A DNA stretch of 29,555 nucleotides from a virus. The position numbers were made by a program, and so were the translations under genes. Numbering within the stretch: position 1 is the stretch's first letter; each line of letters begins with the position of its first letter. Positions 1,649 to 20,930 of this stretch are shown here, one piece after another. The notes beneath the pieces are model-generated. The model ran no database searches. It was not told the origin of the DNA and saw nothing but the letters and a program-made list of their open reading frames with translations. The stretch is taken from positions 1 to 29,555 of the IMG/VR virus record IMGVR_UViG_3300048440_000283. One strand, 5' to 3'.

Positions 1649-2500
1649 TTATACTTCTTTTTTATCTCCTCCTTTAGTTAAATACATTTTAACTGGTTTA
1701 TCTTTATATTCTTTATCTAAAAATGCTTTAATCTTTTCTACATTGCCTGGGTCATCGTCAGAAAACCCAATCATAGGTATGAAATTATTTTTTATATCAT
1801 TTTTAAGAAAGGCTTTTTTACCAATTCTTTCACTCATTTCTTTCACATACGCGATAAAACTCCTTAAAGCTTTAATTTTACCCTCTTCAGGGTCAGCAGC
1901 GTTACCTTCACCATATGTTACAGGATGGTATTTATTTAAATCCAAATAATCATTAATCATTACGGACGAATCCTTTTCCTCGTCACCCGACATATTACGA
2001 TACTTTTTAAGATTGTCAATTAAAGACTCCTTGCTAATACCGTTATGGTTAGTCACAATCATATTATAAATCGCTTCACGTAATACCGATGGTGTGTGAC
2101 CTCTTGCAGTGATTATTGAAAAAATTGACCCCCCGTTTATCGCTTCAACAAAATCATTCCACGATGGACCTGGTTTTGCTAATAGGGAGTCCACTATAAA
2201 GGCGTTATCACCCTTAACTCCGAAATTTCTGTAAGGGTCATCGGCATACCCTACAATCATTTTACCCTTATATTCAAAAGGTTCTTTACCAATCATACCT
2301 CGATAGTCGGCGAAGTCTTCTGTTGACATTCCCACCTCCTCGTCCTCATCGGACAAAAGTATGATTTGTGTCGGCATAGTCGCAATATTATCATCCCAAT
2401 CAAAAGCATAATACTTTAAATCGGGATTACCTTCAGGGTCAAACCCTTCTTGTAATTTTTTTTCGTGATAAAATTCTCTAATAACCTTCTTTAAACTCAT
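1649..2500 (-). CDS. HAD-superfamily phosphatase-like protein
   Basis: A 283-residue protein carrying HAD-superfamily motifs: motif I FDWDDN at residues 33-38 (nucleophile Asp34, with Asp36), motif II in SIITARG (Thr131) and an acidic motif IV GFSDDDPGN around residues 246-253. A lysine in the FLKNDIKN stretch (about 231-238) may serve as motif III. Families with these motifs hydrolyse phosphate esters using Mg2+; the substrate is unknown, and a nucleotide or nucleic-acid end is possible. The N-terminal 18 residues are basic and helical and end in Leu-Gln-Glu before the enzyme domain begins, which may be a leader. It lies between sheath and tube genes and follows a 47-codon gene by only 8 bases, so it is probably co-transcribed with it. 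It is not a recognised T4 structural gene. Confidence 0.65.
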   Translation of the reverse strand: MSLKKVIREFYHEKKLQEGFDPEGNPDLKYYAFDWDDNIATMPTQIILLSDEDEEVGMSTEDFADYRGMIGKEPFEYKGKMIVGYADDPYRNFGVKGDNAFIVDSLLAKPGPSWNDFVEAINGGSIFSIITARGHTPSVLREAIYNMIVTNHNGISKESLIDNLKKYRNMSGDEEKDSSVMINDYLDLNKYHPVTYGEGNAADPEEGKIKALRSFIAYVKEMSERIGKKAFLKNDIKNNFIPMIGFSDDDPGNVEKIKAFLDKEYKDKPVKMYLTKGGDKKEV

Positions 2501-2508
2501 CTTTCTAC

Positions 2509-2652
2509 TTAGTTTTTCTTATTAATTTTTACCATTAGTCTCTCTAATTGTGACTCAGATATAACAATATTCTGAGGTTTTTTAGAAAAAGACTTTTTTC
2601 CGTCAGACTTTACGTTTAACGACTCGTTAAGTGTTTTTTTCTTGAATTCCAT
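2509..2652 (-). CDS. 47-residue basic phage protein
   Basis: A short minus-strand frame starts MEFKKKTLNES and ends ISESQLERLMVKINKKN before a TAA. It fills the gap between the sheath and HAD genes. It has a very basic N-terminal half with many Lys and Ser, and a C-terminal amphipathic helix (SESQLERLM). A promoter element (2711-2718) and a strong hairpin (2684-2705) lie just upstream, and the HAD gene starts 8 bases after its stop, so a real gene in a two-gene operon is plausible. Leu-Asn-Glu at residues 8-10 resembles a T4 prohead protease site. The function is unknown; it could be a small capsid-internal or DNA-binding peptide. Confidence 0.5.
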   Translation of the reverse strand: MEFKKKTLNESLNVKSDGKKSFSKKPQNIVISESQLERLMVKINKKN

Positions 2653-2683
2653 TTTATTTTTGTTTAAACGTTTAATTGGCTAA

Positions 2684-2705
2684 GAGGAGGGAATTAACCC
2701 TCCTC
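2684..2705 (-). terminator. GC-rich hairpin between sheath and small gene
   Basis: Arms GAGGAGGG (2684-2691) and CCCTCCTC (2698-2705) pair perfectly around the loop AATTAA. Nothing else in this AT-rich intergenic stretch is this GC-rich. It begins 24 bases after the tail sheath stop codon. No T-run follows on the minus strand, so it may be a transcript-end stabiliser or attenuator, or the 5' hairpin of the transcript from 2711-2718, rather than a classical terminator. Confidence 0.5.
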
Positions 2706-2710
2706 CTTAA

Positions 2711-2718
2711 TATAAATA
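2711..2718 (-). promoter_or_regulatory. Candidate promoter of the 47-codon/HAD operon
   Basis: Minus-strand AACTATATTTATATTAAG fits the window-wide element. It lies between the sheath stop and the hairpin at 2684-2705, so a transcript from it would begin almost at the hairpin. Confidence 0.4.
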
Positions 2719-2728
2719 TAGTTAGTTA

Positions 2729-5700
2729 TTAAATATCTTCAAAAGATGCTCCTGTAGGAGTAATCAAGAATTCAATATCTATAAATTCAAGTGCTCTTGT
2801 TGGTTTCAAGTAAATTTTACCTGTTAACGTATTAGAGTCTAAATCTTCAGGTGTATTTGAAACTGTAACTCTAAAGTCAATCAAACCTCTGTCTCTTCTA
2901 ATACTATCTAAGATAGGATTAACTGAGTCTAAGAACTCTTGTCTAACTTGTTCATCGTTTTGTTCGAATAATAATCTTACCGCTACTGCCGAAATTAACT
3001 TACGTGCTTGTAGTAATAATCTTCTAACATTTATTCTATCAAGTGCAGATTCTTTAATCTGTAAAGTTTTGTTACCCCAAATAACTGTACCAACATCAGA
3101 GAAGGTTGCTATCGGGTTTAATCTACCTTGATAAAGTGTATCTCTATCTTCTTGTGTTAGTTTTTTACGTGCTTTAACAGAATTAACTAAACCTCTCGTG
3201 TAACCCGCTGATGCGAACCATGGGAAAGCGATGTTGTCTGTTAATGCTAAGTTTCTAACAACTTCACCTGTTGGTGGAAGATAAATCTGTGTATTATTAA
3301 CCGTATCTCTTGTAAGAATCCATGGGTAATAAGTTGCAGTGTAGTTAGAGTCAATTCCTGTATCCTCTAAATTATCTACCGCCTCTTCAGGATAAATGAA
3401 GTCCGTATCGAAATTCCCTAAAGAAGGTGTAAACATATTATAATCAGGTGTTGTACAAATATAAACTGAATCCGCTCTGTCCTGTTCAATCATGTCAATT
3501 GCTGACTCAACTAAATTTGAGTTGTTAACATAATCAATACCAGGTGTAGTAAACACGTTAATGTTAACTGATTCAGGATTATTGAATGTGTACTGACCCC
3601 ATAAGTAAGCGTAATAATCAGTGTTAGCCCAAGTTAATTTATCTGGACCTACAATTTGTTTAAATGCTCCCCACCCTGTTGCGGTTGGATAAGTTATTGA
3701 TGGTGCAGCACCTGCTCTAAATCCAGCAGCTCCTAATTGGTACCTGTCACCATTAGTTCTATATTGCCTGTAAATGTCCCATCCGTCAAAACCTCCTGAT
3801 GGTACAACAGTGAACTTACGTGCATTTAATCTATAATATGGGTTACTTTCACTTTGAGGTTCCCCGTCAAAACTAGCGTCACCAACTTCAAAAGCGGTTT
3901 CACCTGAAGTAATATAGTTAGATGAAATTAAAATAACCGTTGCTCCTGAATCCATATGGTAACCTTTAGTTAGGTAAGACCATGGTTGTGAATCAGTAGC
4001 GGTTGCTAAATTAGTAGGATTTTGTTTTCCTTTATATGATAAGAAATCCGCATCTATACCTGCGGTGTTAGAAACACCTAAGTATGTTCTTCTTACTCTA
4101 TCACCTGAACTTCTTGTTTCATTGTCTGTACCTGAAGCCGCACCAAATGGTGGGTTCCAAATAACTTCACCCGGTGTGTCATATTTTGTTTTATATTCTA
4201 AGAATGGTGATTTAACCCCTGAATACTGTCTAGTTTGATATCCTCTAAACCCACAAGGTAGTGAATCCATAGGTGCATCTTCATTCATTTCTAACATTAT
4301 AAATCTTGACCTTAATTCAAATTCACCATTAGATGTACCAATTTTCTTAGCTACAAAACTATTTTGGTTGATATCCATCGTACAGTTAGTGAATTTCTCT
4401 AAAACTACAGGATTTGCGTCTGTATCGAAGAAATCACGTACTACAACATCAAAGGTTCCATTATTAAATGAGATATTCATAATTGAAACTTTTACCTCTC
4501 TGTTTGCAGCATTACCGTCAGATATTGTTATAACTTTAAACATATCATAAACTTGGTTACCTCTCAGTTCTGAAACAAAATATGGAGTTTCAGGTGTTTG
4601 ATATTGTTCTAAATACCAACCAATACTTGTGTTAGTTCCTAAATCTTGTCTCGCACTTGGTAAATCAGTTAGTGTACAATTTAAACCACGAACACGACCT
4701 AATCTATAACCAGTATTTAATAAGTTATAATATTCTTCTTCTACGAATAAAGGTACTTCAGATTTTGGTTTTGCAAAATTCGATTTTCCGAATACCTTTG
4801 ATAGGTAATTGGAATTAGATACGTTAAATGATGTTTGGAAAAAGAAATTATCTCCATTTGCAGTTGTTGCTGAAAGACCAAATGTAGAGAAAGGGTTAGT
4901 ATTAACCTCCGAGTAAACACCCGTACAATCCATGTTAACATCAGTTAATCCTGATACTTCATATACAGGACCATCATCAGAAGTATATGTATCGATACCT
5001 CGTGAACGTAAAGTTGCTACTACCACATCATGATAATCATTATACGGTGTACCTGTATAATTAGTTACGTAAACTTGAGCGGTCCCTTGATATTCGAGAC
5101 CAACCGTATTTACTAACGTGGTTACACCAAAGCCGAAACCTGTACCATTATAAACACCATTAGATTCTGTAAATAATGCGTAATACCATGGGTCGTTTAC
5201 TGAGTCAGTTAATTCTATTGATTCAAACTGTATATTTTCAACACCTAAAACATTTACGTTACTTACGTAATTAGGTGTAGTAGTTACTCCTGTAATATTA
5301 TCATATGTGGTCGAATCGACTGCTCCCCAAAAATAGGAGGTTTGTCCCGAATTTGCGTTGTTTACAATTTCAGAATAGAAATAACCTTCCATATCTGATT
5401 GTAAAGTTGATTCACCGCCAGTATATGTTGTATATGAATCTGTTATCACACCTTGAATTGAAGCGGGTAGACCACCATAATTGGTGATAGCCACACTTGT
5501 AGATGTTCCTGAAACTCCGGAGAATGACACTGTAAATGGTCCAGTTTGTCCCGTAGCGGTCGTTCCTGAACTATCTAAGTTACCGATAGTTGTTATTGAC
5601 CATGAAGGTCCTGCGTCATACCCTGATAATCCAAGTACCCTTGTTACAAACAATTGATTTGATTGTTGTAGATAAGACTTAGCTATATAAGCCGCCTCAT

Positions 5701-6207: not shown

Positions 6208-7248
6208 TTATAGAAGTCTAGCTTTAGATTTTAATACTGACTGTTTGGTTATATCTATTTTAACTACATCAATCTTAATCTCATCATTAGTTGATACCTT
6301 TATTGTTGCGATATCATCACCAATATAGTTATCATTAATATAAACGGAATAACTATCTACATTAGACGTTTCTAATATTGTTAAATCAATTTCATATCTG
6401 TAAGTTTCAGTTAAAGATTCTAAACCACTAACAAAAATAATGTCTAAATCAAAATCACTTGGATTCGAAGGTAATTTCTCAACTCTCTTACCAGTATTAA
6501 GTAAATCAACCTCAAATATAGTTGCGGTTCTAGATATTGCAGGAGACACCTCAAACTCTTCTTCATCTAATAAGAATCCCATCATTAAGAATTCGTAGTT
6601 TTGTACGTAGTATTTTCTTTTCTCAAGTTCTAAAACGGATTCGTCAGATGAACTGTTTAATATCATTGGTATATAGTGACCCTTTATTTCTGTATACGCT
6701 TGTCTAGATGAAAATTTCTGTAATACCTTTTTATTAAAGTCATTTAACTCTCTCATTCTATTACAGAATATTTTTACATTGTAAGTAATATCTACAGGAA
6801 CGGGTTGAGGTATTTTATATATGTCCATTCCTTTTCTTTGTCCGTCCCACGTTGGTACTTTAGCGTAATAGAATTGTCTTCTATTTGGTATTGTATATTG
6901 TAATGATGGATTTGTCCCAAACTTAACATCGGGGTTTCTAACCGTGGCAACAAAAGGGGGTTTAATATTTTTATCTAAATCCTGAAAATTCCAAGTCTCA
7001 GTAAACTGAGCCCAATTTTGTGTGGTTATAATTAAATCTATATTTTTTATATTCTTCCCGTTTACTGAAATACCTAATTCGTCTCTAACAAAATCTAACA
7101 TACCCCTATCTAAATCTGCATGTAAAATGGATTTTGGTAAATAGGTACCATCTTCTTGAATTTGTTCAAGTAGTTCCTCTCTTCTCTGATGTAAAATTTT
7201 ATCAGGAGTTAAAGGTAAATATTTTTTTACATTTTTAGGTAGTCCCAT
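6208..7248 (-). CDS. 15: Tail sheath stabiliser / tail completion protein, gp15-like
   Basis: A 346-residue protein whose central part resembles T4 gp15, the hexameric cap on the tail that binds the neck. The resembling parts are a Pro-rich strand followed by a conserved beta strand and helix (PQPVPVDITYNVKIFCNRMRELNDF, about 150-175), then a helix and an acidic stretch leading to RRKYYVQN-like KRKYYVQNYEFLMMGFLLDEEEFEVSP (about 230-255) and a TATIFEVDLL strand. T4 gp15 is about 270 residues; this one has a longer N-terminus and a C-terminal beta-rich extension (about 285-346) that looks like an extra small beta-sandwich. It is the last gene of a three-gene operon and overlaps the zinc-ribbon gene by one base (TAATG). 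Co-operonic position with a gp14-like candidate supports the call. Confidence 0.55.
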   Translation of the reverse strand: MGLPKNVKKYLPLTPDKILHQRREELLEQIQEDGTYLPKSILHADLDRGMLDFVRDELGISVNGKNIKNIDLIITTQNWAQFTETWNFQDLDKNIKPPFVATVRNPDVKFGTNPSLQYTIPNRRQFYYAKVPTWDGQRKGMDIYKIPQPVPVDITYNVKIFCNRMRELNDFNKKVLQKFSSRQAYTEIKGHYIPMILNSSSDESVLELEKRKYYVQNYEFLMMGFLLDEEEFEVSPAISRTATIFEVDLLNTGKRVEKLPSNPSDFDLDIIFVSGLESLTETYRYEIDLTILETSNVDSYSVYINDNYIGDDIATIKVSTNDEIKIDVVKIDITKQSVLKSKARLL

Positions 7249-7808
7249 TATTTTACAGTTTCACTTATAAAAAATACTTTATTCTTAGAGTTAATCATTT
7301 CAACCTCGTTAGCATTGTAAATTGGTTCCTCACCATCTTTTCTAACGAATGAGTCATACTTATACGGATTATACGTTATCACATTCTCATTTGGCTCATC
7401 AGGTAAGTTTTCACACGGAAACGTACAAAAATCCATTAAAGTTCCAATCACAAAGGCATGTACATTTTTTCTCATTTCATCTCTTACTTTTTCTTTACCT
7501 CCTTGTCGTACTCTAAATTCAACATCTTTTAATTTAACATAATCGGCATACATTACAATTTTATTTTTATATGATACTGAAAATGTGTGTTTATGTAAGT
7601 TATAGTATACCATAACTTTTTTACCTATATAATTAACTTCTTGATTATCGTTACCACATTTATGACAGATATACGGGTCGTGGCCACCGTCACTTAAATC
7701 CCAAGACCACCCACAATCATCACACACAACTTTTTCACCTTCAATACCTTCACACATATGTGACATACGGGTTTTAATAAAATTTATTTCTTTTAGTAAT
7801 TTTTTCAT
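7248..7808 (-). CDS. Zinc-ribbon phage protein of unknown function
   Basis: A 186-residue protein. An N-terminal basic helix (MKKLLKEINFIKTRM) is followed by a four-cysteine zinc ribbon: Cys29-x2-Cys32, then Gly/Trp-rich CGWSWDLSDGGHDPYICHKCG with Cys48-x2-Cys51. The rest (about 60-186) looks like a compact mixed alpha/beta domain with a basic helix (GGKEKVRDEMRKNVHAFVIG). It overlaps the upstream gene by 4 bases and the downstream gp15-like gene by 1 base, so it is translated with neck and tail-completion proteins and may be a virion or assembly component. Zinc ribbons of this GWSWDLSDGG type recur in large phage proteins, to my recollection, with no assigned role. The function is unknown. 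Confidence 0.6.
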   Translation of the reverse strand: MKKLLKEINFIKTRMSHMCEGIEGEKVVCDDCGWSWDLSDGGHDPYICHKCGNDNQEVNYIGKKVMVYYNLHKHTFSVSYKNKIVMYADYVKLKDVEFRVRQGGKEKVRDEMRKNVHAFVIGTLMDFCTFPCENLPDEPNENVITYNPYKYDSFVRKDGEEPIYNANEVEMINSKNKVFFISETVK

Positions 7809-8366: not shown

Positions 8367-10130
8367 ATGGAAAGTAATAAAGATAAATTATCTAAGATAC
8401 CTGAAGTTAGGGCGCAACGTACATTAGAAGTATACGATGGGTTCAATAATTATATACAATCTATTCAAAAAAAATTTAAAGAACAAAAACATTTTAAATT
8501 AACAAGGGCTCAAGCCGACTACATCAATAGTTATCATGAGTTAGTCCCTAAAATAGCCAGAAAGTGGGTGGACTTAGATAGTTACTTCGGTAAGAAGATG
8601 ATGGAAGATAAACTTCTTACAAAAGTACCTGAAAAAGTTTACATTGAAAAACTTTTGGTCGAAAAAGATAAATCTTTTCACATATGGGGTAAAATATTTG
8701 AAAATGAAAAATTACATTCATTTTGGTTACCTCGTGTTGCACTAATAAAATCACAGGAAATTGAAAAGGTTCAAATAGATTATACTAAATACTCTCATAG
8801 ACCTCCGTTAGAACATCAAATAGAATCTATTGAAAAATTAGCGAGTCATAAGAAATATATCTTAGCTGATGATATGGGGTTAGGTAAGACTACCTCAACC
8901 GTCATTGCTGCTTTAGAGTCGGGAGCCGAAAGAGTATTAATTGTTTGTCCAGCATCTTTAAAAATTAATTGGAAACGTGAAATTCAAAATTATACCGAAA
9001 AAAGCATATCAATAGTCGAAGGTAAGAAATGGGAAAGTGCCGATTTTGTTATTATTAACTATGACATATTAAAGAATTTTCATGATATAAAAAACAAAGA
9101 AGAATCAATAATATTGCAAGAAGGGTTTGATTTAGTTGTTGTCGATGAGGCACATTACATTCAAAATGTTCAAGCAAAAAGAACTAAATTAATTAACGAC
9201 ATAATAAATTCAATAGGTAAGGTATGGTTACTAACGGGTACTCCAATGACATCAAGACCAATTAATTATTATAATTTATTAAATTTAGTAGAATCACCTG
9301 TGGCTTATAATTGGATGGCGTACGTAATTAGGTACTGCGAAGGTTATCAATTTAATGTGGGTAATCGTAAAGTGTGGAACGTAAATGGGGCGTCTAACTT
9401 ATTAGAGTTAAGAGATAGAACCAAAACGCATGTTCTTAGAAGATTAAAACAGGATATTTTAGATTTACCTGATAAGATTATCACTCCCGTTTATTTAAAT
9501 TTAAAATCTAAAGAGTATATGGCACTTATGGGTGAATACTACGATTGGATGGAGGATGATAGGGAGAAAAAATCATTAACCGTACAATTTTCTATGTTAA
9601 TGAAAGTCAGACAAATAATTGCCGAAAATAAAATAAAAGAAACTTGTGAGTTAGTTGAAAACATTATTGAACAAGGAAAGAAAGTAATTGTCTTTACCAA
9701 CTTTACTGACACACTAAATAGAATTGCGGACCACTTTGGTAAAAAGGCAGTTAAATTAGACGGTAAGATGAGTAAAGTTGCTCGTCAAAACTCTGTAGAC
9801 CAATTTCAAGAAAATGATAAAATAAAAGTTTTTGTTGGTAACTTAAAAGCTGCAGGTGTTGGTATAACTCTTACCGCAGCAGAGGCAGTAGTTATGAATG
9901 ATTTATCATTTGTTCCTTCTGACCATTCACAAGCCGAAGACAGAGCGTATAGGTACGGACAAAAATCTAATGTTTCCGTATTCTACCCAATTTTTGAAAA
10001 CTCAATAGAAGGTATCATATATGATATTTTATCTAATAAGAAAAATATTTTTGAAACGGTTATGGGTGATAATGAGGAGAGAGGGGACATAATGGAACAA
10101 ATTATTAATGAAATATCAGTTAGAAGATAA
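8367..10130 (+). CDS. SNF2-family DNA helicase/translocase
   Basis: A 587-residue SNF2-type superfamily 2 ATPase. Motifs in order: a LEHQIESI Q-like motif near residue 148, Walker A DDMGLGKTT (168-176), VCPASLKINWKRE (193-205), DEAH box (260-263), LTGTPM (289-294), then the second RecA lobe with VIVFTNFTDTLNRI (440-453), KAAGVGITLTAA (494-505) and QAEDRAYRYGQ (522-532). The N-terminal 140 residues include a small beta-rich part that resembles the HARP-type region of SMARCAL1-like annealing helicases, though this is only a hint. In T4-like phages UvsW is a helicase used in recombination and replication restart; this could fill that role. The start follows a divergent promoter region with no Shine-Dalgarno. 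The SOD fusion gene follows 38 bases later. Confidence 0.85.
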   Translation: MESNKDKLSKIPEVRAQRTLEVYDGFNNYIQSIQKKFKEQKHFKLTRAQADYINSYHELVPKIARKWVDLDSYFGKKMMEDKLLTKVPEKVYIEKLLVEKDKSFHIWGKIFENEKLHSFWLPRVALIKSQEIEKVQIDYTKYSHRPPLEHQIESIEKLASHKKYILADDMGLGKTTSTVIAALESGAERVLIVCPASLKINWKREIQNYTEKSISIVEGKKWESADFVIINYDILKNFHDIKNKEESIILQEGFDLVVVDEAHYIQNVQAKRTKLINDIINSIGKVWLLTGTPMTSRPINYYNLLNLVESPVAYNWMAYVIRYCEGYQFNVGNRKVWNVNGASNLLELRDRTKTHVLRRLKQDILDLPDKIITPVYLNLKSKEYMALMGEYYDWMEDDREKKSLTVQFSMLMKVRQIIAENKIKETCELVENIIEQGKKVIVFTNFTDTLNRIADHFGKKAVKLDGKMSKVARQNSVDQFQENDKIKVFVGNLKAAGVGITLTAAEAVVMNDLSFVPSDHSQAEDRAYRYGQKSNVSVFYPIFENSIEGIIYDILSNKKNIFETVMGDNEERGDIMEQIINEISVRR

Positions 10131-10148
10131 AAAATTATAATTAACCAT

Positions 10149-10156
10149 TATTTATA
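10149..10156 (+). promoter_or_regulatory. Candidate promoter of the SOD-fusion gene
   Basis: Plus-strand CATTATTTATAATAAAAAAA is one of the clearest copies of the element. It lies in the short gap after the helicase gene and ends 12 bases before the ATG at 10169, so the SOD gene probably has its own transcript. Confidence 0.5.
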
Positions 10157-10168: not shown

Positions 10169-11731
10169 ATGAAGTTCAAAAGATTAATAAATAAAATCTC
10201 AACGATTGAACATAAAATTAATAGCCGAGAAAAGTTAACAGAAGTTAACGTTAATATCTCGCACACTCCCAAACAAATTTTAACAGAAATGAAAAAAATT
10301 GGTATAGAAACATTACCGTACTCTTATTCTGCCTTAGAGAGATTTATAGATTCAGAAACTATGGATACTCACTATAACAAACATTATAAAGGATACGTTA
10401 AGAAATTAAATAATGCATTGTCGAGTAGAGTTGACGGTAACATTGAATTAGAACAATTAATAAGAGGTATTTCACGATACAATAAAACAATTAGAGACAA
10501 TGCGGGCGGAGCATTCAACCACGCACTTTTTTGGAAAATAATGTCACCCAAAAAACAAAGAGCTCAAGGTGAAATTTATGACAAAATAATTAAGGATTTT
10601 GGTAATTTTCCTAAATTCAAAAAAATATTTAGTAATGAGGCAATAAAAAACTTTGGTTCAGGATGGACTTGGTTAGTCTTAACTAAGAATGGTAAATTAA
10701 AAATAATGTCCACCCCAAATCAAGACAACCCATTAATGAATGTGGTTAAAAATGGTGGATACCCATTATTGTGTTTAGATACATGGGAACATGCTTATTA
10801 CTTGAAATACCGTAATAAGAGAGATGAATATGTTAGAAATTTTTGGACAATAATCAATTGGGATTATGTTAATGAATTATATTTAAATCAAACATCAAAA
10901 AAACTAACTGAAACGAAGATAGTTAAAAGTATTATTTCTGAAGGTGCGAGTGCAGGATGTAATAGAAATCAAGTACAGACGTACCGCAGATTATTTAATA
11001 CTAATCCTGAGATAAAAAAACGTTTTATGTATACGATAATGGATATACTAAAAGAAGTATTTTCAGAATATTGGTATGAAAAAAACAAATACTCTAAAGG
11101 TCAAATGTCAGGGATTTATGATTATGAACAAAAAGGTCGCTCAGTGATTAATAAGTTAAATACCAACTACACAGCTTTTTGTACATTAGTGAGTGACACA
11201 AATAAATATTTAAGAAAATATGGTATTGATGCAATTAATTTTAATGATAAAAATCACAAACAACAACTAACTGAAGTTGATAGACTTAACAAATATTTGA
11301 TAGAATTAAGGTACTCTATTTTTAACGCAGATTCACCAACGTTTAAAACTCTAATGTCTGGTTTAGATAAAACAAATAAGTTTGGAGATAAAAGAGAGGT
11401 TGACGCTGTTGTAAGTTTAAAAAAAATATTTAACACTTCTGATGTCAAAAAAGTTGGGGAACTAGGTGACGTAGATGATATGATTAAAGGTATAGACGCA
11501 GTCGTCACATTACCTGAAGGTACTAAAACAATACAAATTAAACCATTTAATCGTATTAATAAAAAAGACGGTAAAGTTATTGTTTACGGTACAGGAAACG
11601 TTAAACCCTATAAAACGGATTATTTAGTTTTTCATAGTGATAAGTTAGGAACTGAAGTTTTTGAGAATAAAAATACTAAAATAGTTAACGGAAGATACGT
11701 TTTTAACGAGTCATCACAATATATTAATTAA
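10169..11731 (+). CDS. Fe/Mn superoxide dismutase fused to a putative PD-(D/E)XK-type nuclease domain
   Basis: A 520-residue fusion. Residues about 44-240 are an iron/manganese superoxide dismutase: IETLPYSYSALE start, metal ligands His68 (in DTHYNKHY), His118 (GGAFNHALFW), Asp204 and His208 (DTWEHAYYL), plus FGSGWTWLV. Ligand spacing (50, 86, 4) matches the family, so it is likely active in turning superoxide into peroxide and oxygen. The remaining ~280 residues are not part of any SOD; near the end Asp443 (GIDAVV) and Gln456-Ile-Lys458 (TIQIK) fit the D...(E/Q)xK core of PD-(D/E)XK nucleases, with Glu410 as a possible helper. Leu-Thr-Glu occurs at 23-25, 38-40, 246-248 and 367-369, which bracket the domains and fit T4 prohead protease sites (L/I-x-E). 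It lies between helicase and neck genes. The SOD call is firm, the nuclease call tentative. Confidence 0.8.
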   Translation: MKFKRLINKISTIEHKINSREKLTEVNVNISHTPKQILTEMKKIGIETLPYSYSALERFIDSETMDTHYNKHYKGYVKKLNNALSSRVDGNIELEQLIRGISRYNKTIRDNAGGAFNHALFWKIMSPKKQRAQGEIYDKIIKDFGNFPKFKKIFSNEAIKNFGSGWTWLVLTKNGKLKIMSTPNQDNPLMNVVKNGGYPLLCLDTWEHAYYLKYRNKRDEYVRNFWTIINWDYVNELYLNQTSKKLTETKIVKSIISEGASAGCNRNQVQTYRRLFNTNPEIKKRFMYTIMDILKEVFSEYWYEKNKYSKGQMSGIYDYEQKGRSVINKLNTNYTAFCTLVSDTNKYLRKYGIDAINFNDKNHKQQLTEVDRLNKYLIELRYSIFNADSPTFKTLMSGLDKTNKFGDKREVDAVVSLKKIFNTSDVKKVGELGDVDDMIKGIDAVVTLPEGTKTIQIKPFNRINKKDGKVIVYGTGNVKPYKTDYLVFHSDKLGTEVFENKNTKIVNGRYVFNESSQYIN

Positions 11732-11772: not shown

Positions 11773-12885
11773 ATGTCAGTAATAGTTGAACCACAAAGAA
11801 CAAAACTTTATACCCGTGTAAAACACCTATTAGGTGCACCAATACGTAGTATTGAAATAGAAGATGAAATGATGGACTCTTTATTAGAGTTATCTATTCA
11901 GGATTACGCTCAATATGTGAATGATTGGTTAATAGAGTCTCAATGGACATCACTTTACGGTATGAACTTAGATGAACAATCTGTCACAAGAGCATTCACT
12001 ACTCGTTCATTAGACTGGGAAACTCAATACACCTATTCTTATTCTAAAATAGTTGGACTTCAAGCCGGTGGAGACTCAGTACTCAAAAAAGATTATATCG
12101 ACTTAAAAACAAACCAACAAATTTATGAAATACCAGCAGGTAGAGAATTAAATGAATTATTATGGTTTTCAAGAGCAGAATTAGACGCAGCCTTTTTCGA
12201 CCCATTTATGGGTGGATTTGGAGGTATGGGTGGTGTAGGTTTAGGTGGTGGTGCCGGATTTTCACAAATGGGACAAACAGGTAATTACATGATAACACCC
12301 GCTTTTGACATTTTACTTAGAATGCAAGACATAAATTTAAAACGAAGACTTATTGGTGGTGAATTAACGTATAGAGTAACTGCGTTACCTGAAGGAAAAA
12401 AAGCCGTACATCTTTATAATGTCCCTGGAGGTAAATTTGATTTTGGTACAATAGAAAATAACGAATATAGAGTATGGTATTGGTATTACGAAACTAATGA
12501 TAGGGAAGATTGTTTAGCTAAAAACCCTGATGTAGTGAGACTACCTTCTGATATTCCAATTGATGAAATGTTATGGGCAGAACTAAATAATCCAGCACAA
12601 GCTTGGGTTAGAAAGTGGTTTGTTGCTTATGTTAAAGAAACTTTAGGACGTGTAAGAGGTAAATTTAGTGGTAATTTAAAAACTCCAGATTCTGAAGTAA
12701 CAATGGATTACGATTCTTTACTCACTGAAGCTAAAGACGAAAAGAGTAAATTAATGGAAGAATTAATGAATCGATTAGAAAGGTTAAGACCTGATAAGAT
12801 GATGGAAAGAGAAGCTAATTTAGCTGAAAATTTAAATAAATCATTACAATACAGAGCGTTACCGAGACAAATGTACGTAATTTAA
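11773..12885 (+). CDS. 13: Neck protein, gp13-like
   Basis: A 370-residue protein with the pattern of T4-type gp13, which sits at the portal and joins head to tail. The N-terminal half is helical with an acidic DEMMDSLLELSIQDYAQYVNDWL segment (about 31-53), then WETQYTYSYSK and LKKDYIDLKTNQQIYEIPAGRELNELLWF (about 105-132). A Gly/Met-rich loop (about 143-166) sits where T4 gp13 is shorter, and the C-terminal half has VWYWYYETND, a WAELNNPAQAWVRKWFVAYVKETLGRVRGKFSG helix pair and a charged C-terminal coil. T4 gp13 is about 309 residues. A promoter element precedes it and the next gene starts 2 bases after its stop. The family call is from remembered patterns, helped by gp14-, gp15- and gp18-like genes nearby. 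Confidence 0.6.
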   Translation: MSVIVEPQRTKLYTRVKHLLGAPIRSIEIEDEMMDSLLELSIQDYAQYVNDWLIESQWTSLYGMNLDEQSVTRAFTTRSLDWETQYTYSYSKIVGLQAGGDSVLKKDYIDLKTNQQIYEIPAGRELNELLWFSRAELDAAFFDPFMGGFGGMGGVGLGGGAGFSQMGQTGNYMITPAFDILLRMQDINLKRRLIGGELTYRVTALPEGKKAVHLYNVPGGKFDFGTIENNEYRVWYWYYETNDREDCLAKNPDVVRLPSDIPIDEMLWAELNNPAQAWVRKWFVAYVKETLGRVRGKFSGNLKTPDSEVTMDYDSLLTEAKDEKSKLMEELMNRLERLRPDKMMEREANLAENLNKSLQYRALPRQMYVI

Positions 12886-12887: not shown

Positions 12888-13226
12888 ATGGGAATTATAA
12901 AAACACGACCGATTAAAAAAATTATTAATGGTAAAGAAACTATTTTTTCTGAAACTATTATGGTAATTAATATGCCTTTTTATAAGACAAATGGTGAGAG
13001 CGCTATTGTGGTTAAAAATAGTAATTCAGAATGTGTCATTTTATTAGATGAAACCACCACAGAACATATTACCGTAAAATCTATGTCAGACTCTATAGTA
13101 AAAACAGACAAACTAATCGATGAACAATATGAAGAAATTAGACTCGAAAAGTTTGCCTCTGTTGAACTAAGATATATAAATAACTACTGGTACGTTATGT
13201 CTTCTGATGGTCTAAAGAATTCATAA
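12888..13226 (+). CDS. Small beta-rich phage protein, probable virion component
   Basis: A 112-residue protein dominated by short beta strands: IIKTRPIKKIINGKETIF, a TETIMVINMPFYKTNG-like pair, AIVVKN, CVILLDETTTEHITVKSM, then an acidic helix (KLIDEQYEEIRLEK) and a VELRYINNYWYVMSSDGLK ending. The repeated Thr in TTTEHITVKSMS and the final aromatic WYVMSSDGLK look like those of small phage decoration or fibre-tip proteins, though I cannot name the family. It follows the gp13-like gene by 2 bases, so it is probably a late structural gene. Its last 32 bases overlap the 3' end of the convergent DNA polymerase gene. Confidence 0.55.
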   Translation: MGIIKTRPIKKIINGKETIFSETIMVINMPFYKTNGESAIVVKNSNSECVILLDETTTEHITVKSMSDSIVKTDKLIDEQYEEIRLEKFASVELRYINNYWYVMSSDGLKNS

Positions 13227-16026
13227 TATTCATATTTTTATTAACGTATTCCATATCCACTAATTTAGTTGTATTCTCAAGATACATGTAATATGGGTTT
13301 ATGTTAACGTCATCCCAAAACCTAATTTCGGGGTCAGATAATGTTAATACTTCATCTAAATTATCCTGACTACCTTCTTTCATGGGGAATCCTCTAACCA
13401 ACTTAGTTTGTGATTTAGTAAAAAACGGTCTATCATCTGGATTATCCACTAATATTTCACTACGAATTTCAGGAGAAAACACTACCAACAAAGGTTCAAT
13501 ACGTTTATTAAATGCTGCCATATAACGAGGAATATTGTATTCACCTAATTTGTCAGGTGTTTCACTAATATATTTATCATCAATTAAATAACAATTCAAT
13601 ACGATTTCTGTAGAATCTGGAGGCATTGGCTTACCATTATTTATTGCATATTCTCTCTTTTCTGCCGCAGTTGCATTCCACTTATTCTTTTTTTGAACAT
13701 CACCGTGAGATTTTCGTTCACCATTATTGACATAATAGATAGTATCACCTAATCCCACATTTAAGTTATGTTTTATAGCTAATTCCATATGTGCCTGTCG
13801 AGACATTAAAGACCCTGATTTGGTTCGTTTTTTTACGTGTAATTTATAATCACTTATACTTTGTTTAACACGAGATTTATTGGCGATTTTAGAAATCGGT
13901 ATCTCCAAGTTATAAATTTTATTTACATACTCATAATAAAAGTCTAAAAACTCATGACCTTTACCGTCCAATAATAGACGTAACCCTTGGTCCAAAAACT
14001 CTGCGACATACGTTTGAAGCTTTTTAGATTTAATACTATTACCTGTTAATTTAACCTTACCTGTATCAGTGAGTAGTGCGTAGTTTTTACGTGCAACATT
14101 TATAGTAGACGGCCATACACCGTCAGTATCTAACCCCATTTCACCTCTCATGAAAATATCATTATACTCCGCTACGTCCGCCTCAGTACCAATATACTCT
14201 TTACCTTCTTCAACCAACCCGTTTAATCCTTTACCGATATATGTGTGTTTTTCACGTTCAGGTGGAGATGAAAAGTTTACACCATCCGTATCCATCACTA
14301 ATGGTTTGTAACCTCTCTTCATAAACCACATTATCATTTGTCTAAGATATTGTCTACCCGTACAGGTAATTTGTTCTCCCATATCCATATCACCCCACGG
14401 AAATACGTGTGGAGCGGATAATGACCCGAAAAATGCGTTAATGAATATTTTAATTGGTAATTGTTTACGATTATACTTTTTAGATTGTTCTGGGTCTGAA
14501 ACGTATAAATCTGAAGCCAATTTTTTATAAGTGATACGAGTATCTCTAAAATACTTTAACATACTCTTCATGGCTCCCGTTACATCACATTTAGGGAAGA
14601 TATCATGAACTAACTGTATCGATGGGTATAGTGATGAGTAATCGAGTTTTAAAACGTCTGTAGAGTACCCTACTGCCATCAATCTTGACAATCCACCTGT
14701 AAATGGTCGTTTTTCACCTTTCTTAGGAATTGCTAAGTTATGTTTATATGACCAAGCGGCCATAATCATTTTCCATAATGTTGCGGTACCCATTGTTGAT
14801 AGCCTCTCATATGTGGTAGGTACTAATTTAGATAGAAGGAAGTTTGCTTGATTAAACTCCTCGTCTACAACCATAGTCTCCCATATATCATCATAGAGAT
14901 ACCTTTCAATAATGTAGTTCCCATTTACCTTTTCATAGTGTCCTGGAAATCTTTCCATTAGGTTTTCAGTACCTATTGAACCAACTTCTTTGTAACCACC
15001 TGTCTTTGGGTTGAAATAATAATCTTTGTTGTCAAAATAAATTTTACCAATTTTATCTCCTTCAACATAAACACGGTTTTCTTTTTCCGCCCCAATAAAT
15101 TGAGTTATGTATTTAAGACCCCAACTTTTAATGTCTGAGTTAATTGCTTGTGTTCTTCTAACTGCATGTGCGATATCAATGATATTGTAACCCCACATCA
15201 TTGTTTGAGTGTATGGTTCCATTTCATTCGCTAACTTCAACATACCCTCCTTCTGTCTTAACTTTTGTTTGGGATTTAATGTTTTAGATATTTTTTTGAC
15301 ATCTAACCCTAATATTTCCGCTCTACGAAGAATAAAAGGAAAATCGAAAAAGGCTGAGTTATAACCACCAATCAAGGTCGGTTTTATACTTGCGATTGTA
15401 TCAAAAAATTCAATAATAACTTTACGTTCCTCTTCATCGTTTTCACAAGCGATAACCTTTTCGAAACCTTTATTATCTTTCATCCCTATAAGGAATATTT
15501 TACTATCCTCAGGAGATAGTCCTGTAGTCTCAATATCAAATACAAAACGATGTACCTCATCGTATTCATCGAAACCTTTAAAAAGTCTTTTATTTTTTTG
15601 TATTAAATATTGTTCGGCAGGTGCTAGAATCATTATGTAGTCTGAATTACCACGACCCCATGGGTCTAATCCACCACCTTTAAAAAAGTTTACTAAATTA
15701 CTATATGATTTAGTTGTCTTAACTAAATACTTTAAACCCTGTTCCATTCGGGTATCATTATGAGTATCTAATGTCTCAATAATTATTCCATGTGTAGACA
15801 TAGCTTGTTTTTGAGCTGCCTTAGAACCGCCATAAAAGTTGAGTCCTTGTAGGTTACCTACCCATGCAAATGGAATAAATGTGTCTGATTTTATTGATTT
15901 ACCCTGTATTGGGTCTTGAATTACTTTGAATATTTTTCCTGACGCGTAATCATATTCTAACGCTACAATATATTTTTCAGGGTCCTCTCCATTGAGGAAC
16001 GTTTCAATTTGTTCTTGTGATACCAT
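13195..16026 (-). CDS. 43: Family B DNA polymerase, gp43-like
   Basis: A 943-residue replicative DNA polymerase. The 3'-5' proofreading exonuclease is intact: Exo I FVFDIETTGL (Asp164, Glu166), Exo II GYNSAFFDFPF (about 221-231) and a WGLKYITQF region leading to Exo III. Polymerase motif A is KLDYSSLYPSI (460-470), motif B is KIFINAFFGSLSA (526-538) and motif C is VMDTDGVNF (577-585) with the catalytic DTDG. T4 gp43 is about 898 residues. It is the last gene of a long minus-strand block whose other members look structural, and a 100-base leader with a hairpin precedes it, which suggests separate control. Its 3' end overlaps the convergent small gene by 32 bases. Confidence 0.95.
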   Translation of the reverse strand: MVSQEQIETFLNGEDPEKYIVALEYDYASGKIFKVIQDPIQGKSIKSDTFIPFAWVGNLQGLNFYGGSKAAQKQAMSTHGIIIETLDTHNDTRMEQGLKYLVKTTKSYSNLVNFFKGGGLDPWGRGNSDYIMILAPAEQYLIQKNKRLFKGFDEYDEVHRFVFDIETTGLSPEDSKIFLIGMKDNKGFEKVIACENDEEERKVIIEFFDTIASIKPTLIGGYNSAFFDFPFILRRAEILGLDVKKISKTLNPKQKLRQKEGMLKLANEMEPYTQTMMWGYNIIDIAHAVRRTQAINSDIKSWGLKYITQFIGAEKENRVYVEGDKIGKIYFDNKDYYFNPKTGGYKEVGSIGTENLMERFPGHYEKVNGNYIIERYLYDDIWETMVVDEEFNQANFLLSKLVPTTYERLSTMGTATLWKMIMAAWSYKHNLAIPKKGEKRPFTGGLSRLMAVGYSTDVLKLDYSSLYPSIQLVHDIFPKCDVTGAMKSMLKYFRDTRITYKKLASDLYVSDPEQSKKYNRKQLPIKIFINAFFGSLSAPHVFPWGDMDMGEQITCTGRQYLRQMIMWFMKRGYKPLVMDTDGVNFSSPPEREKHTYIGKGLNGLVEEGKEYIGTEADVAEYNDIFMRGEMGLDTDGVWPSTINVARKNYALLTDTGKVKLTGNSIKSKKLQTYVAEFLDQGLRLLLDGKGHEFLDFYYEYVNKIYNLEIPISKIANKSRVKQSISDYKLHVKKRTKSGSLMSRQAHMELAIKHNLNVGLGDTIYYVNNGERKSHGDVQKKNKWNATAAEKREYAINNGKPMPPDSTEIVLNCYLIDDKYISETPDKLGEYNIPRYMAAFNKRIEPLLVVFSPEIRSEILVDNPDDRPFFTKSQTKLVRGFPMKEGSQDNLDEVLTLSDPEIRFWDDVNINPYYMYLENTTKLVDMEYVNKNMNIMNSLDHQKT

Positions 16027-16615: not shown

Positions 16616-18391
16616 TTAGTCACATGGTATTATGCTTGTAACCATTCCATTAGTTACAATAAGTATATCAGTACTACCATCAACAGCTATACGACCGTTA
16701 TCGAACGGGAATTCACCATTAGGGTCTGTAAATATTGGGTTATTTTGTGCTGGAGTAGTATTAGTCTCGTCTTTAAATTTAGCGAAGTAATACGTTTCAG
16801 TTTTAACCGCCGCACATTGTGTTACTCCTGATGCACCTATAAATGAAGGTAACGCCGCAGGACATGAAATATCCATATCCCATACTGTATTACTATAAAA
16901 TCCAATACTTTCTAGTCTTAGGTCAGATGCAAGAGTATTTGTTTTCGGTATCACCATAAGGTTCCATGTTCTTGGGTCACCAGCATCAGTACCTGTGTTC
17001 GCCACATAATCCCCATTTTGGAATGTTGCGTTGGCAGTACCGTTTACTACCCAAGCTTCGTTAGCATCTAAATAATATTGGGTTAATTCATATGATACTC
17101 CCGCAGTAATACTTGTAGGTGCCTCGGTTGGTGAACTTGTTCCAACATATGTGAAGTTTCCGGTACCTGGACTTGTTGACTTGACTGGGTTTGTTACTGC
17201 AAGATTTGGACTAAACAATGTATTGTAGGTTGCTAAGTTATGACGTACTCTAATACCATCTGGAATTGAACGAGGCCCGAAATAAATAACAACCGCACCT
17301 GTGTCAGTACCAACACTAAAGTCAACAAGATACTTACCTTGTGTACCTATAGGTATACTTGGGGCTCTATTACACGGTTGTAAAGGTATTGCTGGCTCAG
17401 TTGGTGTCGGAGTTGGTGTTGAAGTACTAGTTGGTGTCGGGCTGACATCTCCACCTCCACCTGTTGTTGGTGTTGGAGTCGGAGTCGTAGTATTAGTTGG
17501 TGTTGGAGTCACATTTTTATCATCTGTAGTTGGTGTCGGAGTTGGTGTTGAAGTACTAGTTGGTGTTGGGCTGACATCTCCACCCCCACCTGTAGTTGGT
17601 GTCGGAGTTGGTGTTGAAGTACTAGTTGGTGTTGGGCTGACATCTCCACCTCCACCTGTTGTCGGTGTTGGTGTTGGGGTTGAGGTATTAGTTGGTGTCG
17701 GGCTTGGAGCTATATCACATATACAATTTCCATTTGTATTTGCTGACCCACCACATGATGGACTATTGTTTATTACACTCAGAGCACAAATTGTTTTTGA
17801 ATCGTATCGGTCGAGTATGATTTGTGTAGTTATACCCTCACAATCTACTACTGTAAATGTTGTACCAGATTCACATTCCATACCTCCATATAAGGACCAC
17901 GTATTACAACATGGATTCGTTGGTGTTGGTGTCGGGGTTGATGTGTTAGTTGGGGTATTAGTTGGAGTAGACGTGGGAGGAAGACCTGTTGTTACTGTCG
18001 GTGTCGGTGTTACAGTATTAGTTGGCGTATTTGTCGGTGTTACAGTATTAGTTGGAGTATTTGTCGGTGTTACAGTATTAGTTGGCGTATTTGTTGGGGT
18101 AGACGTGGGAGGAAGTCCTGCCGTTACTGTTGGTGTTGGTGTTTGAGTTGGCGTACTAGTGGGTGTTGGGGTGACAAAAGATACTGTTGCAATAACATCA
18201 CACGGAGAATCACTTGCACATATATATACGTTATGAGTATCAACATCAACAAATGAATACCCATCAATTAATTGTTGTCTAGTTACCGTAGCAATTAGAT
18301 TTCCAGCATCTATTGAGGTATGATAAATATTAATCACCGAGATATTTGTCCCGACCGTTAATCCTGTTAATGTTACTGTTCTATTCGCCAT
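16616..18391 (-). CDS. Pro/Thr-repeat fibre or adhesin-like virion protein
   Basis: A 591-residue modular protein. Residues about 1-72 form a small beta domain; then a Pro/Thr-rich linker (74-159) built of TNTPTNTVTP-type units; a Cys-rich module (160-226, with six or more Cys and CCNTW, GNCICD); a second Pro/Thr linker (229-332) with three 22-residue GGGGDVSPTPTSTSTPTPTPTT units and one variant; and a C-terminal beta-rich domain (about 333-591) with aromatic patches (ELTQYYLDANEAW, YYFAKFKDET). Such beads-on-a-stalk proteins are typical of fibres and adhesins, and the C-terminal domain may bind host glycans; this is inferred. Two promoter elements precede it. No collagen-like repeat or chaperone domain is visible. 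Confidence 0.65.
   Translation of the reverse strand: MANRTVTLTGLTVGTNISVINIYHTSIDAGNLIATVTRQQLIDGYSFVDVDTHNVYICASDSPCDVIATVSFVTPTPTSTPTQTPTPTVTAGLPPTSTPTNTPTNTVTPTNTPTNTVTPTNTPTNTVTPTPTVTTGLPPTSTPTNTPTNTSTPTPTPTNPCCNTWSLYGGMECESGTTFTVVDCEGITTQIILDRYDSKTICALSVINNSPSCGGSANTNGNCICDIAPSPTPTNTSTPTPTPTTGGGGDVSPTPTSTSTPTPTPTTGGGGDVSPTPTSTSTPTPTPTTDDKNVTPTPTNTTTPTPTPTTGGGGDVSPTPTSTSTPTPTPTEPAIPLQPCNRAPSIPIGTQGKYLVDFSVGTDTGAVVIYFGPRSIPDGIRVRHNLATYNTLFSPNLAVTNPVKSTSPGTGNFTYVGTSSPTEAPTSITAGVSYELTQYYLDANEAWVVNGTANATFQNGDYVANTGTDAGDPRTWNLMVIPKTNTLASDLRLESIGFYSNTVWDMDISCPAALPSFIGASGVTQCAAVKTETYYFAKFKDETNTTPAQNNPIFTDPNGEFPFDNGRIAVDGSTDILIVTNGMVTSIIPCD
17399..17707 (-). repeat. 66-base coding repeats of the second Pro/Thr linker
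   Basis: Three near-identical units and one shorter variant encode GGGGDVSPTPTSTSTPTPTP-type blocks in residues 229-332 of the fibre-like protein. On the plus strand the same bases give Val/Gly-rich open frames that are only shadows. The unit number probably varies between strains by slippage. Confidence 0.8.
17915..18172 (-). repeat. 30-base coding repeats of the first Pro/Thr linker
   Basis: This encodes residues 74-159 of the fibre-like protein, with three tandem ten-residue TNTPTNTVTP units (around 18000-18095) flanked by two GLPPTSTPTNTPTNT blocks. It is a different repeat family from 17399-17707 but of similar composition. Confidence 0.75.
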
Positions 18392-18872: not shown

Positions 18873-20930
18873 TTATTGATTACTTCCGTAACATTCCATA
18901 CTAATCTCATTAGATGTTATTTTATACTCATAACACTCACTACTACCTGATGGTAAGTTACTAACTAAAACATATAATGGAAAGTCGTTATATGTTAATC
19001 CGGTACCGTAAATTTCCCATGGACCACCAACACAGTCTCTAAACTGTACAGTAAAGGTAAATGAAGGGGAAGACATATTGGACTCAATAGATAACTCACA
19101 ATATGGTTCTTCAGGAGTATCTTGACATATCATATGTTGACCATACGTGGACGCGTAACTATATCCATCTGCAATTCTTTCAGGTCTAAATTCAAGATTA
19201 ATAAAAGTAATTCCAAAATTAGCACAATATGACATAATAGTATGACAATCAGAATTTGGTATGTTACAAGGAAAGTTTGGGCAATCAGAAATATATGTAC
19301 CATCGAATGTACCTAAAGGAATGGTCCATGTACCATAGTCCCATGTGTGGAATCCAAGAACAGCATGACCCACTTCATGAGCATGTAAAAAATTATCAAA
19401 TAAATTACCTGTAACTCCCGACATAACATAAGGTAAGTCTACGTTAACATTATATGCAACTGCAACATTATTAATTGTATTATCAATATCAGGATAATAA
19501 ATTCCTAAGAAATTAGATATCCCTTGTAACCCCGTATTATTAAAACTTCTTCGATTTATCTGATAAATGAAGTTATAGTCAATACCCGGTAATAAAGTAT
19601 TATGGTTATTTTTATAATAAGTACCAATAGTATCTCGATATTGTACTTCATTAGGATTTCCCGCAACATTCCATGGTTCTGAGGTTTGAGTAGTCCATTC
19701 TACGATACCTTTAACTTTAAAAGTGAAATCACCATTAAAACTTGGTTCATAGAAGGCATTAAGGAATAAATTCATCGATTCAATATAAAGTTGTGAATTA
19801 CCACCATTTTGCTGTATTCTATTATATGAATTAAACGGTAAATCATATATCATATCGACACAATAATATTGTGACCCACTTAAGGACTGTGACATTACCG
19901 ACTCTCTGAATTGATTAATTTCTCTTTCTTTAGGGTTTACAGTACTACCACAATTAAAATTAGGACCTTCGATAAATGATTTAAACGCAGTATAAAGTTT
20001 ATCTGTCGTTTCAGTTAATAAAACTGTAGTACTATTCTTTTCGTATAAACAATAAACCGTAGTTTCACTAATACCTAAACTACCAATACTCTTATTACCG
20101 TCTTTAATTCGATAAGTTCTAAGTATTGGGCTAACTGACTCTATTATAGAATTTTCACCCTGACTTGACAATGTTATTTCAGGATTAGAATACTCAGTTT
20201 TTTCTAATCTCATTATCGCCATAGTTCCATCCCAATTAGGAATTGCCATTTCAAAGGACTCGTAATTATTATCGTAGATATTTTTTAGAGTTTCTGAATT
20301 GTAAGTAAATTCTGATAGGTTTTCACCTGTAGAATTAAATGTAAATAAACCTATAGGTGTATCACCTGAGTTAGTAAATTCACAATTTAACTCACAACTT
20401 AACGAATAATTAGGTGTTTGAGATATTGTGGGGGTGGGGGTAGGGGTAATACTTGAAGGTGATGGTGTAGGGGGTATCGGTGTATTAGACGGTGTAGGGG
20501 GTATTCCTCCTCCAGATGAGCCTCCTCCAGATGAACCTCCACCATACGGTTTACAACATAGTTCAGGCTTGCTAATTGAATCTGTTATATTTATAAATAA
20601 TTTTTTTCTTCTTGGTAAAATTATTTCACCCTGACTATTTGATATTTTAAATTCACCTATATAACCACCGATATGTCTTGTTTCGTGAGAAGTTAATTGG
20701 TAATAAACATAGTACTCCACTTCTTCAGTGTCTATCGTTGATGGTTTAACCATAACTGAGGCAGGTTTATTCATAATGTAATAAACATTAGTTTCTTCAT
20801 TCCACATACTAAAAGTGATAGTCGAGTCTTTAGTTAAGTTATCAAACTCTCTAAAGTCAACTCTACCATCTTTTACTATTTGTACCTTTATAATAGGTAA
20901 CGTACTATTTTTTCTTATAAAAAATTCCAT
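18873..20930 (-). CDS. Tail-associated metzincin metalloprotease with baseplate-type N-terminal domain
   Basis: A 685-residue modular protein. Residues 1-118 are the baseplate-type domain shared with the downstream gene; 129-175 a flexible Gly/Ser then Pro/Thr linker; 176-330 a Cys-containing beta domain; 331-610 a zinc metalloprotease domain. The latter has the metzincin zinc site HAHEVGHAVLGFH (His518, Glu519, His522, His528) and, 38 residues on, a Met-turn HTIMSYC (Met566), just as in serralysin- and pappalysin-type enzymes. Several Cys (550, 555, 562, 569) surround the site. A C-terminal beta domain (611-685) follows. It likely cuts a surface protein, matrix or S-layer component of the host on arrival; the substrate is unknown. 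It overlaps the upstream gene at 20930 by one base, so they are co-transcribed. Confidence 0.8.
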   Translation of the reverse strand: MEFFIRKNSTLPIIKVQIVKDGRVDFREFDNLTKDSTITFSMWNEETNVYYIMNKPASVMVKPSTIDTEEVEYYVYYQLTSHETRHIGGYIGEFKISNSQGEIILPRRKKLFINITDSISKPELCCKPYGGGSSGGGSSGGGIPPTPSNTPIPPTPSPSSITPTPTPTISQTPNYSLSCELNCEFTNSGDTPIGLFTFNSTGENLSEFTYNSETLKNIYDNNYESFEMAIPNWDGTMAIMRLEKTEYSNPEITLSSQGENSIIESVSPILRTYRIKDGNKSIGSLGISETTVYCLYEKNSTTVLLTETTDKLYTAFKSFIEGPNFNCGSTVNPKEREINQFRESVMSQSLSGSQYYCVDMIYDLPFNSYNRIQQNGGNSQLYIESMNLFLNAFYEPSFNGDFTFKVKGIVEWTTQTSEPWNVAGNPNEVQYRDTIGTYYKNNHNTLLPGIDYNFIYQINRRSFNNTGLQGISNFLGIYYPDIDNTINNVAVAYNVNVDLPYVMSGVTGNLFDNFLHAHEVGHAVLGFHTWDYGTWTIPLGTFDGTYISDCPNFPCNIPNSDCHTIMSYCANFGITFINLEFRPERIADGYSYASTYGQHMICQDTPEEPYCELSIESNMSSPSFTFTVQFRDCVGGPWEIYGTGLTYNDFPLYVLVSNLPSGSSECYEYKITSNEISMECYGSNQ

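Follow-up and report, generated by a model that had tools for sequence, protein, structure and literature searches.

In bacteriophage T4, gp21 removes N-terminal peptides from the core proteins IPI-III and Alt, and injection is described for IPI (PMC9958956). The gp21 motif is given as L/I-X-E, cut on the C-terminal side of the glutamate, and Alt is cut at both ends, its C-terminus included (PMC9026906). Leaders of T4 head proteins are 10–20 residues long (PMC5694885), and the internal proteins of T4-type phages are described as diverse defence proteins with a capsid-targeting sequence as their only common feature (PMC3012670).

The window, that is the whole stretch of 29,555 bases analysed here, is itself a virus record and a fragment of a larger phage: bases 1801–31355 of a 198.8-kb record (G001) are 99.97–99.99% identical to its entire length. 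Sequence comparison and structure modelling place in one of its gene products a leader, a superoxide dismutase (SOD) with a full metal site, a linker with two predicted cleavage sites and a nuclease of PD-(D/E)XK type with a full active site (Table 1), and gp21 and gp23 genes are present in the same phage. The most economical reading is a capsid-targeted polyprotein, in the manner of the T4 internal proteins and Alt (PMC9958956, PMC5694885). We give a probability of roughly 0.6 to such a product, which would be cleaved within the prohead to yield the SOD and the nuclease, both probably ejected with the DNA.

Table 1. Features of the SOD-nuclease locus, in window coordinates (arrows mark predicted cuts).
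Feature	Position	Strand	Residues	Remarks
DNA helicase (phrog_62)	8367..10130	+		upstream neighbour in 157/159 loci
TATTTATA, candidate late promoter element	10149..10156	+		over-represented upstream of ORFs; picked after the fact
SOD-nuclease preprotein ORF	10169..11731	+		520 aa plus stop
Charged N-terminal leader, candidate capsid-targeting propeptide	10169..10288	+	1–40	
Predicted prohead-protease site A	10280..10288	+	38–40	LTE↓M
Fe/Mn superoxide dismutase domain	10304..10888	+	46–240	Pfam, PDB match, ligands
Predicted prohead-protease site B	10904..10912	+	246–248	LTE↓T
Predicted prohead-protease site C	10934..10942	+	256–258	ISE↓G
Nuclease domain	10943..11728	+	259–520, core about 403–520	model, fold match, E410/D443/Q456/K458
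Neck / head-tail adaptor protein (phrog_211)	11773..12885	+		downstream neighbour in 151/159 loci
DNA polymerase	13195..16026	-		convergent; order same in loci shown

A scan of viral contigs with the whole protein gave 26 loci. An alignment of the nuclease matched 456 stretches and a second nuclease query 427, and the best 80 of 456 and the best 80 of 427 were analysed. These two nuclease scans yielded 159 loci, 108 of them with SOD and nuclease in one frame, 49 without an SOD match and two with the SOD in another frame, due to a broken frame in L111 and to a split gene in L180. A third query added 78 loci, many in contigs already sampled (56 fused, 21 without an SOD match, one with the SOD out of frame). 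Copies at 100% to less than 50% identity occupy many contigs, so that a chimeric assembly or a chance joining was ruled out.

The position of the gene, with the helicase gene on its 5' side and the neck gene on its 3' side, is constant in many uncultured T4-like phages, as the sequence-only reading had correctly described it for the window. Among the 159 loci, no more than 900 bases separate the helicase gene from the nuclease gene downstream of it, except for one locus at 910 bases and one without a match near a contig end. The neck gene follows within 500 bases in all but eight loci, in three of which it is farther away and in five of which it had no match. The only match of the neck protein in the phage collection was to one uncultured 484-kb record. 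In all seven long relatives (G001 and six others), both a Peptidase_S77 protein, i.e. a gp21-type prohead protease, and a gp23 major capsid protein were detected over the Pfam cut-offs.

Other features of the window and its parent record were observed as well. The reverse-strand ORF at 18873–20930 contains HAHEVGHAVLGFH, by eye a zinc-metallopeptidase-like HExxH motif, and ORF 16616–18391 has TPTPT-type repeats at about 17400–18100 that align to shifted copies of themselves. Pfam matches were found to Phage_L5_gp82 (PF25735, E 5e-30) at 7248–7808 (reverse strand) and to DUF3721 (PF12518, E 2e-11) at 23044–23850 (forward strand). Six tRNA genes lie in G001 at positions 1216–3166 of piece L158.

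The SOD part was assigned by two Pfam families, Sod_Fe_N (PF00081, residues 47–126, E 3.6e-21, 75.9 bits against a cut-off of 27) and Sod_Fe_C (PF02777, residues 133–236, E 6e-39, 132.7 bits against a cut-off of 20.9), and no other family matched the 520-residue protein up to E 10. Its best match among the sequences of solved structures is an SOD (E 6e-57 over residues 48–238). The NCBIfam Mn profile scored higher than the Fe profile (186.9 versus 172.2 bits), both under the strict equivalog cut-offs. We take H68, H118, D204 and H208 to be the metal ligands by correspondence to E. coli MnSOD. The sequence-only reading had placed four such ligands in residues 44–240, and this holds: H68 and H118 are kept in 83/83 covering proteins and D204 and H208 in 84/84 distinct fused relatives. 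H72, Y76, W166, W168 and Gln185 are likewise present in every covering protein among these 84; presumably they have the roles assigned to these residues in SOD, with Gln185 at the Mn-type position. The domain is very probably an active SOD.

For the rest of the chain, a full-length structure model from 12 close sequences was poor (pLDDT 52) and was set aside. A model of the 262-residue C-terminal domain, built from an alignment of 42 diverse members, reached a pLDDT of 92.2 and a pTM of 0.84. Foldseek against the PDB placed the homing endonuclease I-Ssp6803I on top (E 9.5e-4, the only match below 0.001), followed by Hjc resolvases. With VIA-align the best match was an Hjc resolvase (Z 8.3, 3.4 Å over 102 residues, 14% identity), and next came Eco15I, I-Ssp6803I, SPARDA, NhoI, HhaI and DpnI, with Z from 7.3 to 6.3, a range below 8 that taken alone can reflect a common arrangement. 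Hjc-type resolvases, restriction and homing endonucleases, SPARDA, tRNA-splicing endonucleases and RecU-type chains make up the first 30 matches, which we take to be enzymes of the PD-(D/E)XK superfamily. The VIA-align matches from Hjc to DpnI all cover about residues 140–262 of the model, i.e. about residues 400–520 of the protein; the helical part 259–402, within the whole model, is covered by almost no listed structure.

E410, D443, Q456 and K458 are identical in 110/110 distinct proteins, and residue 457 is I or V. This gives the active-site pattern E...D-x(12)-Q-x-K, where Gln replaces the Glu of the (D/E)xK motif. The same four residues are found in L057, a standalone protein of a 735-kb phage that is 24–26% identical. 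The earlier proposal of a C-terminal half that is not SOD and has a PD-(D/E)XK core at D443 and Q456-I-K458 is thus borne out by the modelled fold and the invariant residues, to which E410, absent from that proposal, has to be added. Nuclease activity is quite likely. Nothing credible was found for this domain in Pfam, PHROGs, NCBIfam, PADLOC or PDB sequences, and weak, scattered matches to ArsA_ATPase (2e-4, 1/42 members) and ABC-3C MC4 (0.002, 5/42 members) were taken as chance. Pfam gave no Hjc match up to E 10; the likeness to Hjc seen here is one of fold. None of 77 pattern matches in cellular contigs was confirmed as a relative, in a pattern-seeded search that distant ones may escape. 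In a single virus collection the family is represented by 456 matching stretches or more, with no credible match in four family libraries.

The predicted cleavage sites were examined in the same relatives. When 84 distinct fused proteins are compared over linker columns 236–264, every column varies except K245, E248, E258 and C264, and E248 and E258 are the two predicted cut points. Residue 256 is I or L in 84/84, residue 257 takes nine residue types and residue 259 is G in 72/84. Of 109 distinct fused proteins, 108 have [LI]xE ahead of the nuclease (the exception, L317, reads MKE), 96 have it behind the SOD (109 if V is allowed), and 95 have both linker sites in the strict L/I form. In the last 24 residues before LPY, 93/103 complete leaders have [LI]xE and 103/103 have [LIV]xE, a count which leaves out six fused proteins with an incomplete or frame-shifted leader. 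Sequences were also grouped into 17 clusters sharing less than 75% identity, and shuffled. [LI]xE within ten residues before C264 was present in 17/17 clusters, versus a mean of 3.0 and a maximum of 9 with shuffled linkers (2000 rounds), and 16/17 clusters have it among the final 20 leader residues, versus a mean of 9.0 and a maximum of 15; the shuffles overstate independence because the 17 clusters are related.

Site A falls in one shared alignment column in only 12/17 clusters. In T4, gp21 cuts usually have A or G at P1'. At sites A and B, P1' is mostly M, S or T among the relatives, M and T in the window, and some distant members have E↓A at their sites, e.g. LHE↓A, LLE↓A or LTE↓A. The gp23 relatives of all seven long records read LINE↓A at the place that we presume to be the T4 cut position. 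In the G001 proteome, N-terminal [LI]xE[AG] is only mildly enriched (18/216 ORFs versus 31/644 other windows). We regard cleavage of the preprotein by the prohead protease as likely. In L018, L019 and L020 the reading frames of leader and SOD differ by one base, with a frame break near a C run at about 5095–5125 and an ATG at the SOD start, which may reflect frameshifting, a second start or an assembly error.

Variants without a fused SOD showed what stays with the nuclease. L205 and L210 lack the SOD and retain, in a 309-residue protein, the leader, INE↓M and ISE↓G. In L180, the SOD ORF keeps its leader, including LITE↓M, and its end reads KINNLKK in place of the K[LIV]xE of fused members; an LLTE↓K stands at the start of the nuclease ORF. 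Twenty of the 28 distinct frames that have no fused SOD keep [LIV]xE three to seven residues before the first Cys; the eight that do not are L129, L130, L135, L178, L192, the jumbo-type L255 and L257, and L278, whose frame is cut short. Members without the SOD have thus, for the most part, retained the leader and sites on the nuclease. PF02777 was found in 9/15 long records, eight with the fusion plus that of L180, and in 0/6 others.

When 42 nuclease domains are placed on a tree, the starred branches force the two changes that the SOD label requires, with L180 labelled "none" despite the SOD gene next door and L111 labelled SOD. One loss is forced because L205 sits inside SOD-fused members, and a 13-member clade without a fused SOD, which includes L180, would mark another loss provided that the midpoint rooting is correct. 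Standalone nuclease homologues without a leader occur in other phages, at 5743–6615 of L057, at 5001–5852 of L255 and in L257, and no helicase or neck protein match lies near the latter two. A single-sequence query gave no relative of L057; an alignment query gave L255 (66%). In BFVD, a 1113-residue protein of an uncultured marine phage has the nuclease fold (TM 0.83).

Signals of expression were sought upstream of the ORFs. TATTTATA, 20 bases ahead of the SOD-nuclease gene, is the most over-represented 8-mer on the coding strand (40 versus 16 of 216 in G001), and we take it to be the reverse complement of the T4 late promoter TATAAATA. The form TATTTAT[AT] was found upstream of neck, protease, scaffold-region and tail-tube genes (59/228 ORFs in all), and was absent upstream of the gp23, sheath, helicase and polymerase genes. 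Its placement agrees loosely with late expression of the SOD-nuclease gene. Weak hints suggest a host among the Bacteroidota. Shine-Dalgarno-like sites are few (10/216 ORFs), and among 24 pattern-seeded cellular SODs the best match was from Sphingobacterium, then Fluviicola, Parapedobacter and Clostridia. TAnnTTTG, presumably a Bacteroidota promoter motif, showed no clear enrichment upstream of ORFs (24 versus 18 of 216).

Under the polyprotein reading, a preprotein made late in infection would be brought by its leader into the prohead core, where the gp21-type protease of the phage would cut after Glu40, Glu248 and Glu258. This would leave a free SOD (about 41–248) and a free nuclease (259–520) among the packaged DNA, and both would enter the next host upon ejection. 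In that cell, removal of host-made superoxide by the SOD would spare iron-sulphur enzymes and the DNA that comes in, whereas the targets of the nuclease would be host DNA, competitor DNA or branched DNA. The presence of the products in the virion is fairly likely; their ejection is somewhat favoured. The roles of the two enzymes in the cell are the least certain step, and we regard as evenly balanced the complete scheme, in which a late-gene polyprotein would be separated by the prohead protease inside the capsid into an oxidative-stress shield and a DNA-cutting effector, both delivered with the genome, with an SOD that may be dropped or split off while the signals are kept. The suggestion of the sequence-only reading that the protein could be delivered with the DNA gains indirect support from a leader and three [L/I]-x-E sites that fit a gp21-type protease, delivery itself being what we still infer. 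That one fused enzyme would both shield the DNA and act on it is unlikely, because the domains are probably cut apart at head maturation.

Another reading takes the C-terminal domain as a nuclease with which the phage resolves branches or packages DNA, in place of T4 endonuclease VII or gp4, and which would work in the cell or at the portal with the adjacent helicase, the SOD being a passenger that guards the enzyme or the DNA. It agrees with the nearest folds (I-Ssp6803I and the Hjc Holliday-junction resolvases), with a helicase gene within 900 bases upstream in 157/159 loci and with the persistence of the nuclease where the SOD is missing. It also agrees with the failure to find endonuclease VII (PF02945 over cut-off, 0/9 records), RuvC (no match at all, 0/9) or, with one exception, gp4 (PF08722, 0/7 records; phrog_218, 1/9), but these negatives cover only those three proteins in records that are possibly incomplete. 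Furthermore, the window protein had no Pfam match to T4 gp4 (PF08722) and an hhalign probability of only 0.4%, where T4 gp4 itself, as a positive control, matched PF08722 at E 2e-21. The reading also leaves unexplained a conserved leader and cleavage sites that L205 keeps without the SOD, and we consider it improbable, if worth weighing. The phrog_218 match (E 3e-11, in a 303-residue ORF) lies in L253, an SOD-less relative (G009, 16638–16955), and a separate gp2 (phrog_429) was found in 0/9 records. T4 gp4 is a virion-associated nuclease required for packaging (PMC7824862). A junction or packaging role and the packaging of the nuclease in the head are compatible, and both could hold.

The protein might also work uncut, as a two-domain cytoplasmic enzyme whose SOD would shield the genome during replication, or a nuclease sensitive to radicals, [L/I]xE being ordinary linker composition. 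The motif is indeed short, columns with [LI]xE are conserved inside the folded domains too (residue 207, in the constrained WEH of the SOD, in 15/17 clusters; 369 in 13/17; 296 in 11/17), and the leader is out of frame in L018–L020. However, both linker glutamates are invariant in 84 proteins over columns that otherwise vary except for K245 and C264, the shuffles fall short of the observed site counts, and L205 keeps both sites without an SOD, as L180 keeps one per half. An uncut enzyme is unlikely in our view. Finally, the SOD domain could be a non-enzymatic carrier that dimerises or stabilises the nuclease. It is dispensable, because some members keep the nuclease without it, but a carrier has no need of the ligands and of His72, Tyr76, Trp166, Trp168 and Gln185, which are kept throughout, and this idea is very improbable.

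Further head cargo is possible. The reverse-strand ORF at 1649–2500 of the window has a leader MSLKKVIREFYHEKKLQE↓G like a prohead-protease propeptide, and its remainder is HAD-like by eye, with no Pfam match. The forward-strand ORF at 24606–24989 has a propeptide-like leader MKLLTTVKGLINE↓I, and after it a stretch that matches WYL only weakly (PF13280, E 0.0012, under the cut-off). Both ORFs might be such cargo. Similarly, the G001 ORFs with N-terminal [LI]xE[AG] make a candidate list of virion cargo; ORFs 71201–73117, 82913–83584, 108987–110048 and 159149–160579 (pieces L156–L161) read LLNE↓G, IISE↓G, KLNE↓A and LIE↓G at the N-terminus.

The polyprotein reading, if true, would mean that an antioxidant enzyme is carried inside a phage head. 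This would imply that phages are truly under pressure from superoxide at DNA entry, possibly a sign that host defence has an oxidative arm, and the T4 internal-protein principle would extend to a polyprotein with modular cargo. The cleavage hypothesis can be tested directly on the variants that occur in nature without an SOD or with a split gene.

SODs are annotated or matched in other phages too, and in two of them, Vibrio phage 2.275.O and Pseudomonas phage PA5oct, the match is confined to the SOD part (29.1% and 25.4% identity). With Hjc and I-Ssp6803I the nuclease shares the core fold of about residues 403–520, and differs by its Gln variant, the extra helical part 259–402 and the want of a credible family model. 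Among the open-licence PMC papers matched by our searches, no title or abstract beginning describes a phage SOD-nuclease protein, and to that extent the earlier claim that none is described stands. It does not extend to databases: A0A6J5L953 (UniProt/BFVD), a 501-residue protein of an uncultured Caudovirales phage, was deposited as "superoxide dismutase", and its model covers the nuclease model (TM 0.90, 33% identity), so that by name and match it appears to have the same architecture.

Polyvalent proteins of phages and conjugative elements, for which entry into the host along with the DNA is predicted, join several unlike domains in a single polypeptide (PMC5512222), and the SOD-nuclease chain shares this trait of disparate domains in one phage polypeptide. 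Embedded peptidases were proposed for the release of polyvalent-protein domains (PMC5512222), whereas none is seen here by Pfam and a prohead protease would act instead. The word "superoxide" does not occur in the main texts of the polyvalent-protein survey (PMC5512222) and of the jumbo-phage surveys.

A further close likeness is to IPI-III and Alt of T4, in an N-terminal propeptide ending in L/I-x-E and a phage that has a gp21-type protease and gp23, and also, by inference, in late expression and in delivery, IPI and Alt being injected. Unlike these, the chain described here joins two enzymes that are not related to each other and that a double site separates, its leader is about 40 residues long versus 10–20 in T4 (PMC5694885), and its cargo is an SOD and a nuclease. 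SOD would be a new cargo among the gp21-processed internal proteins.
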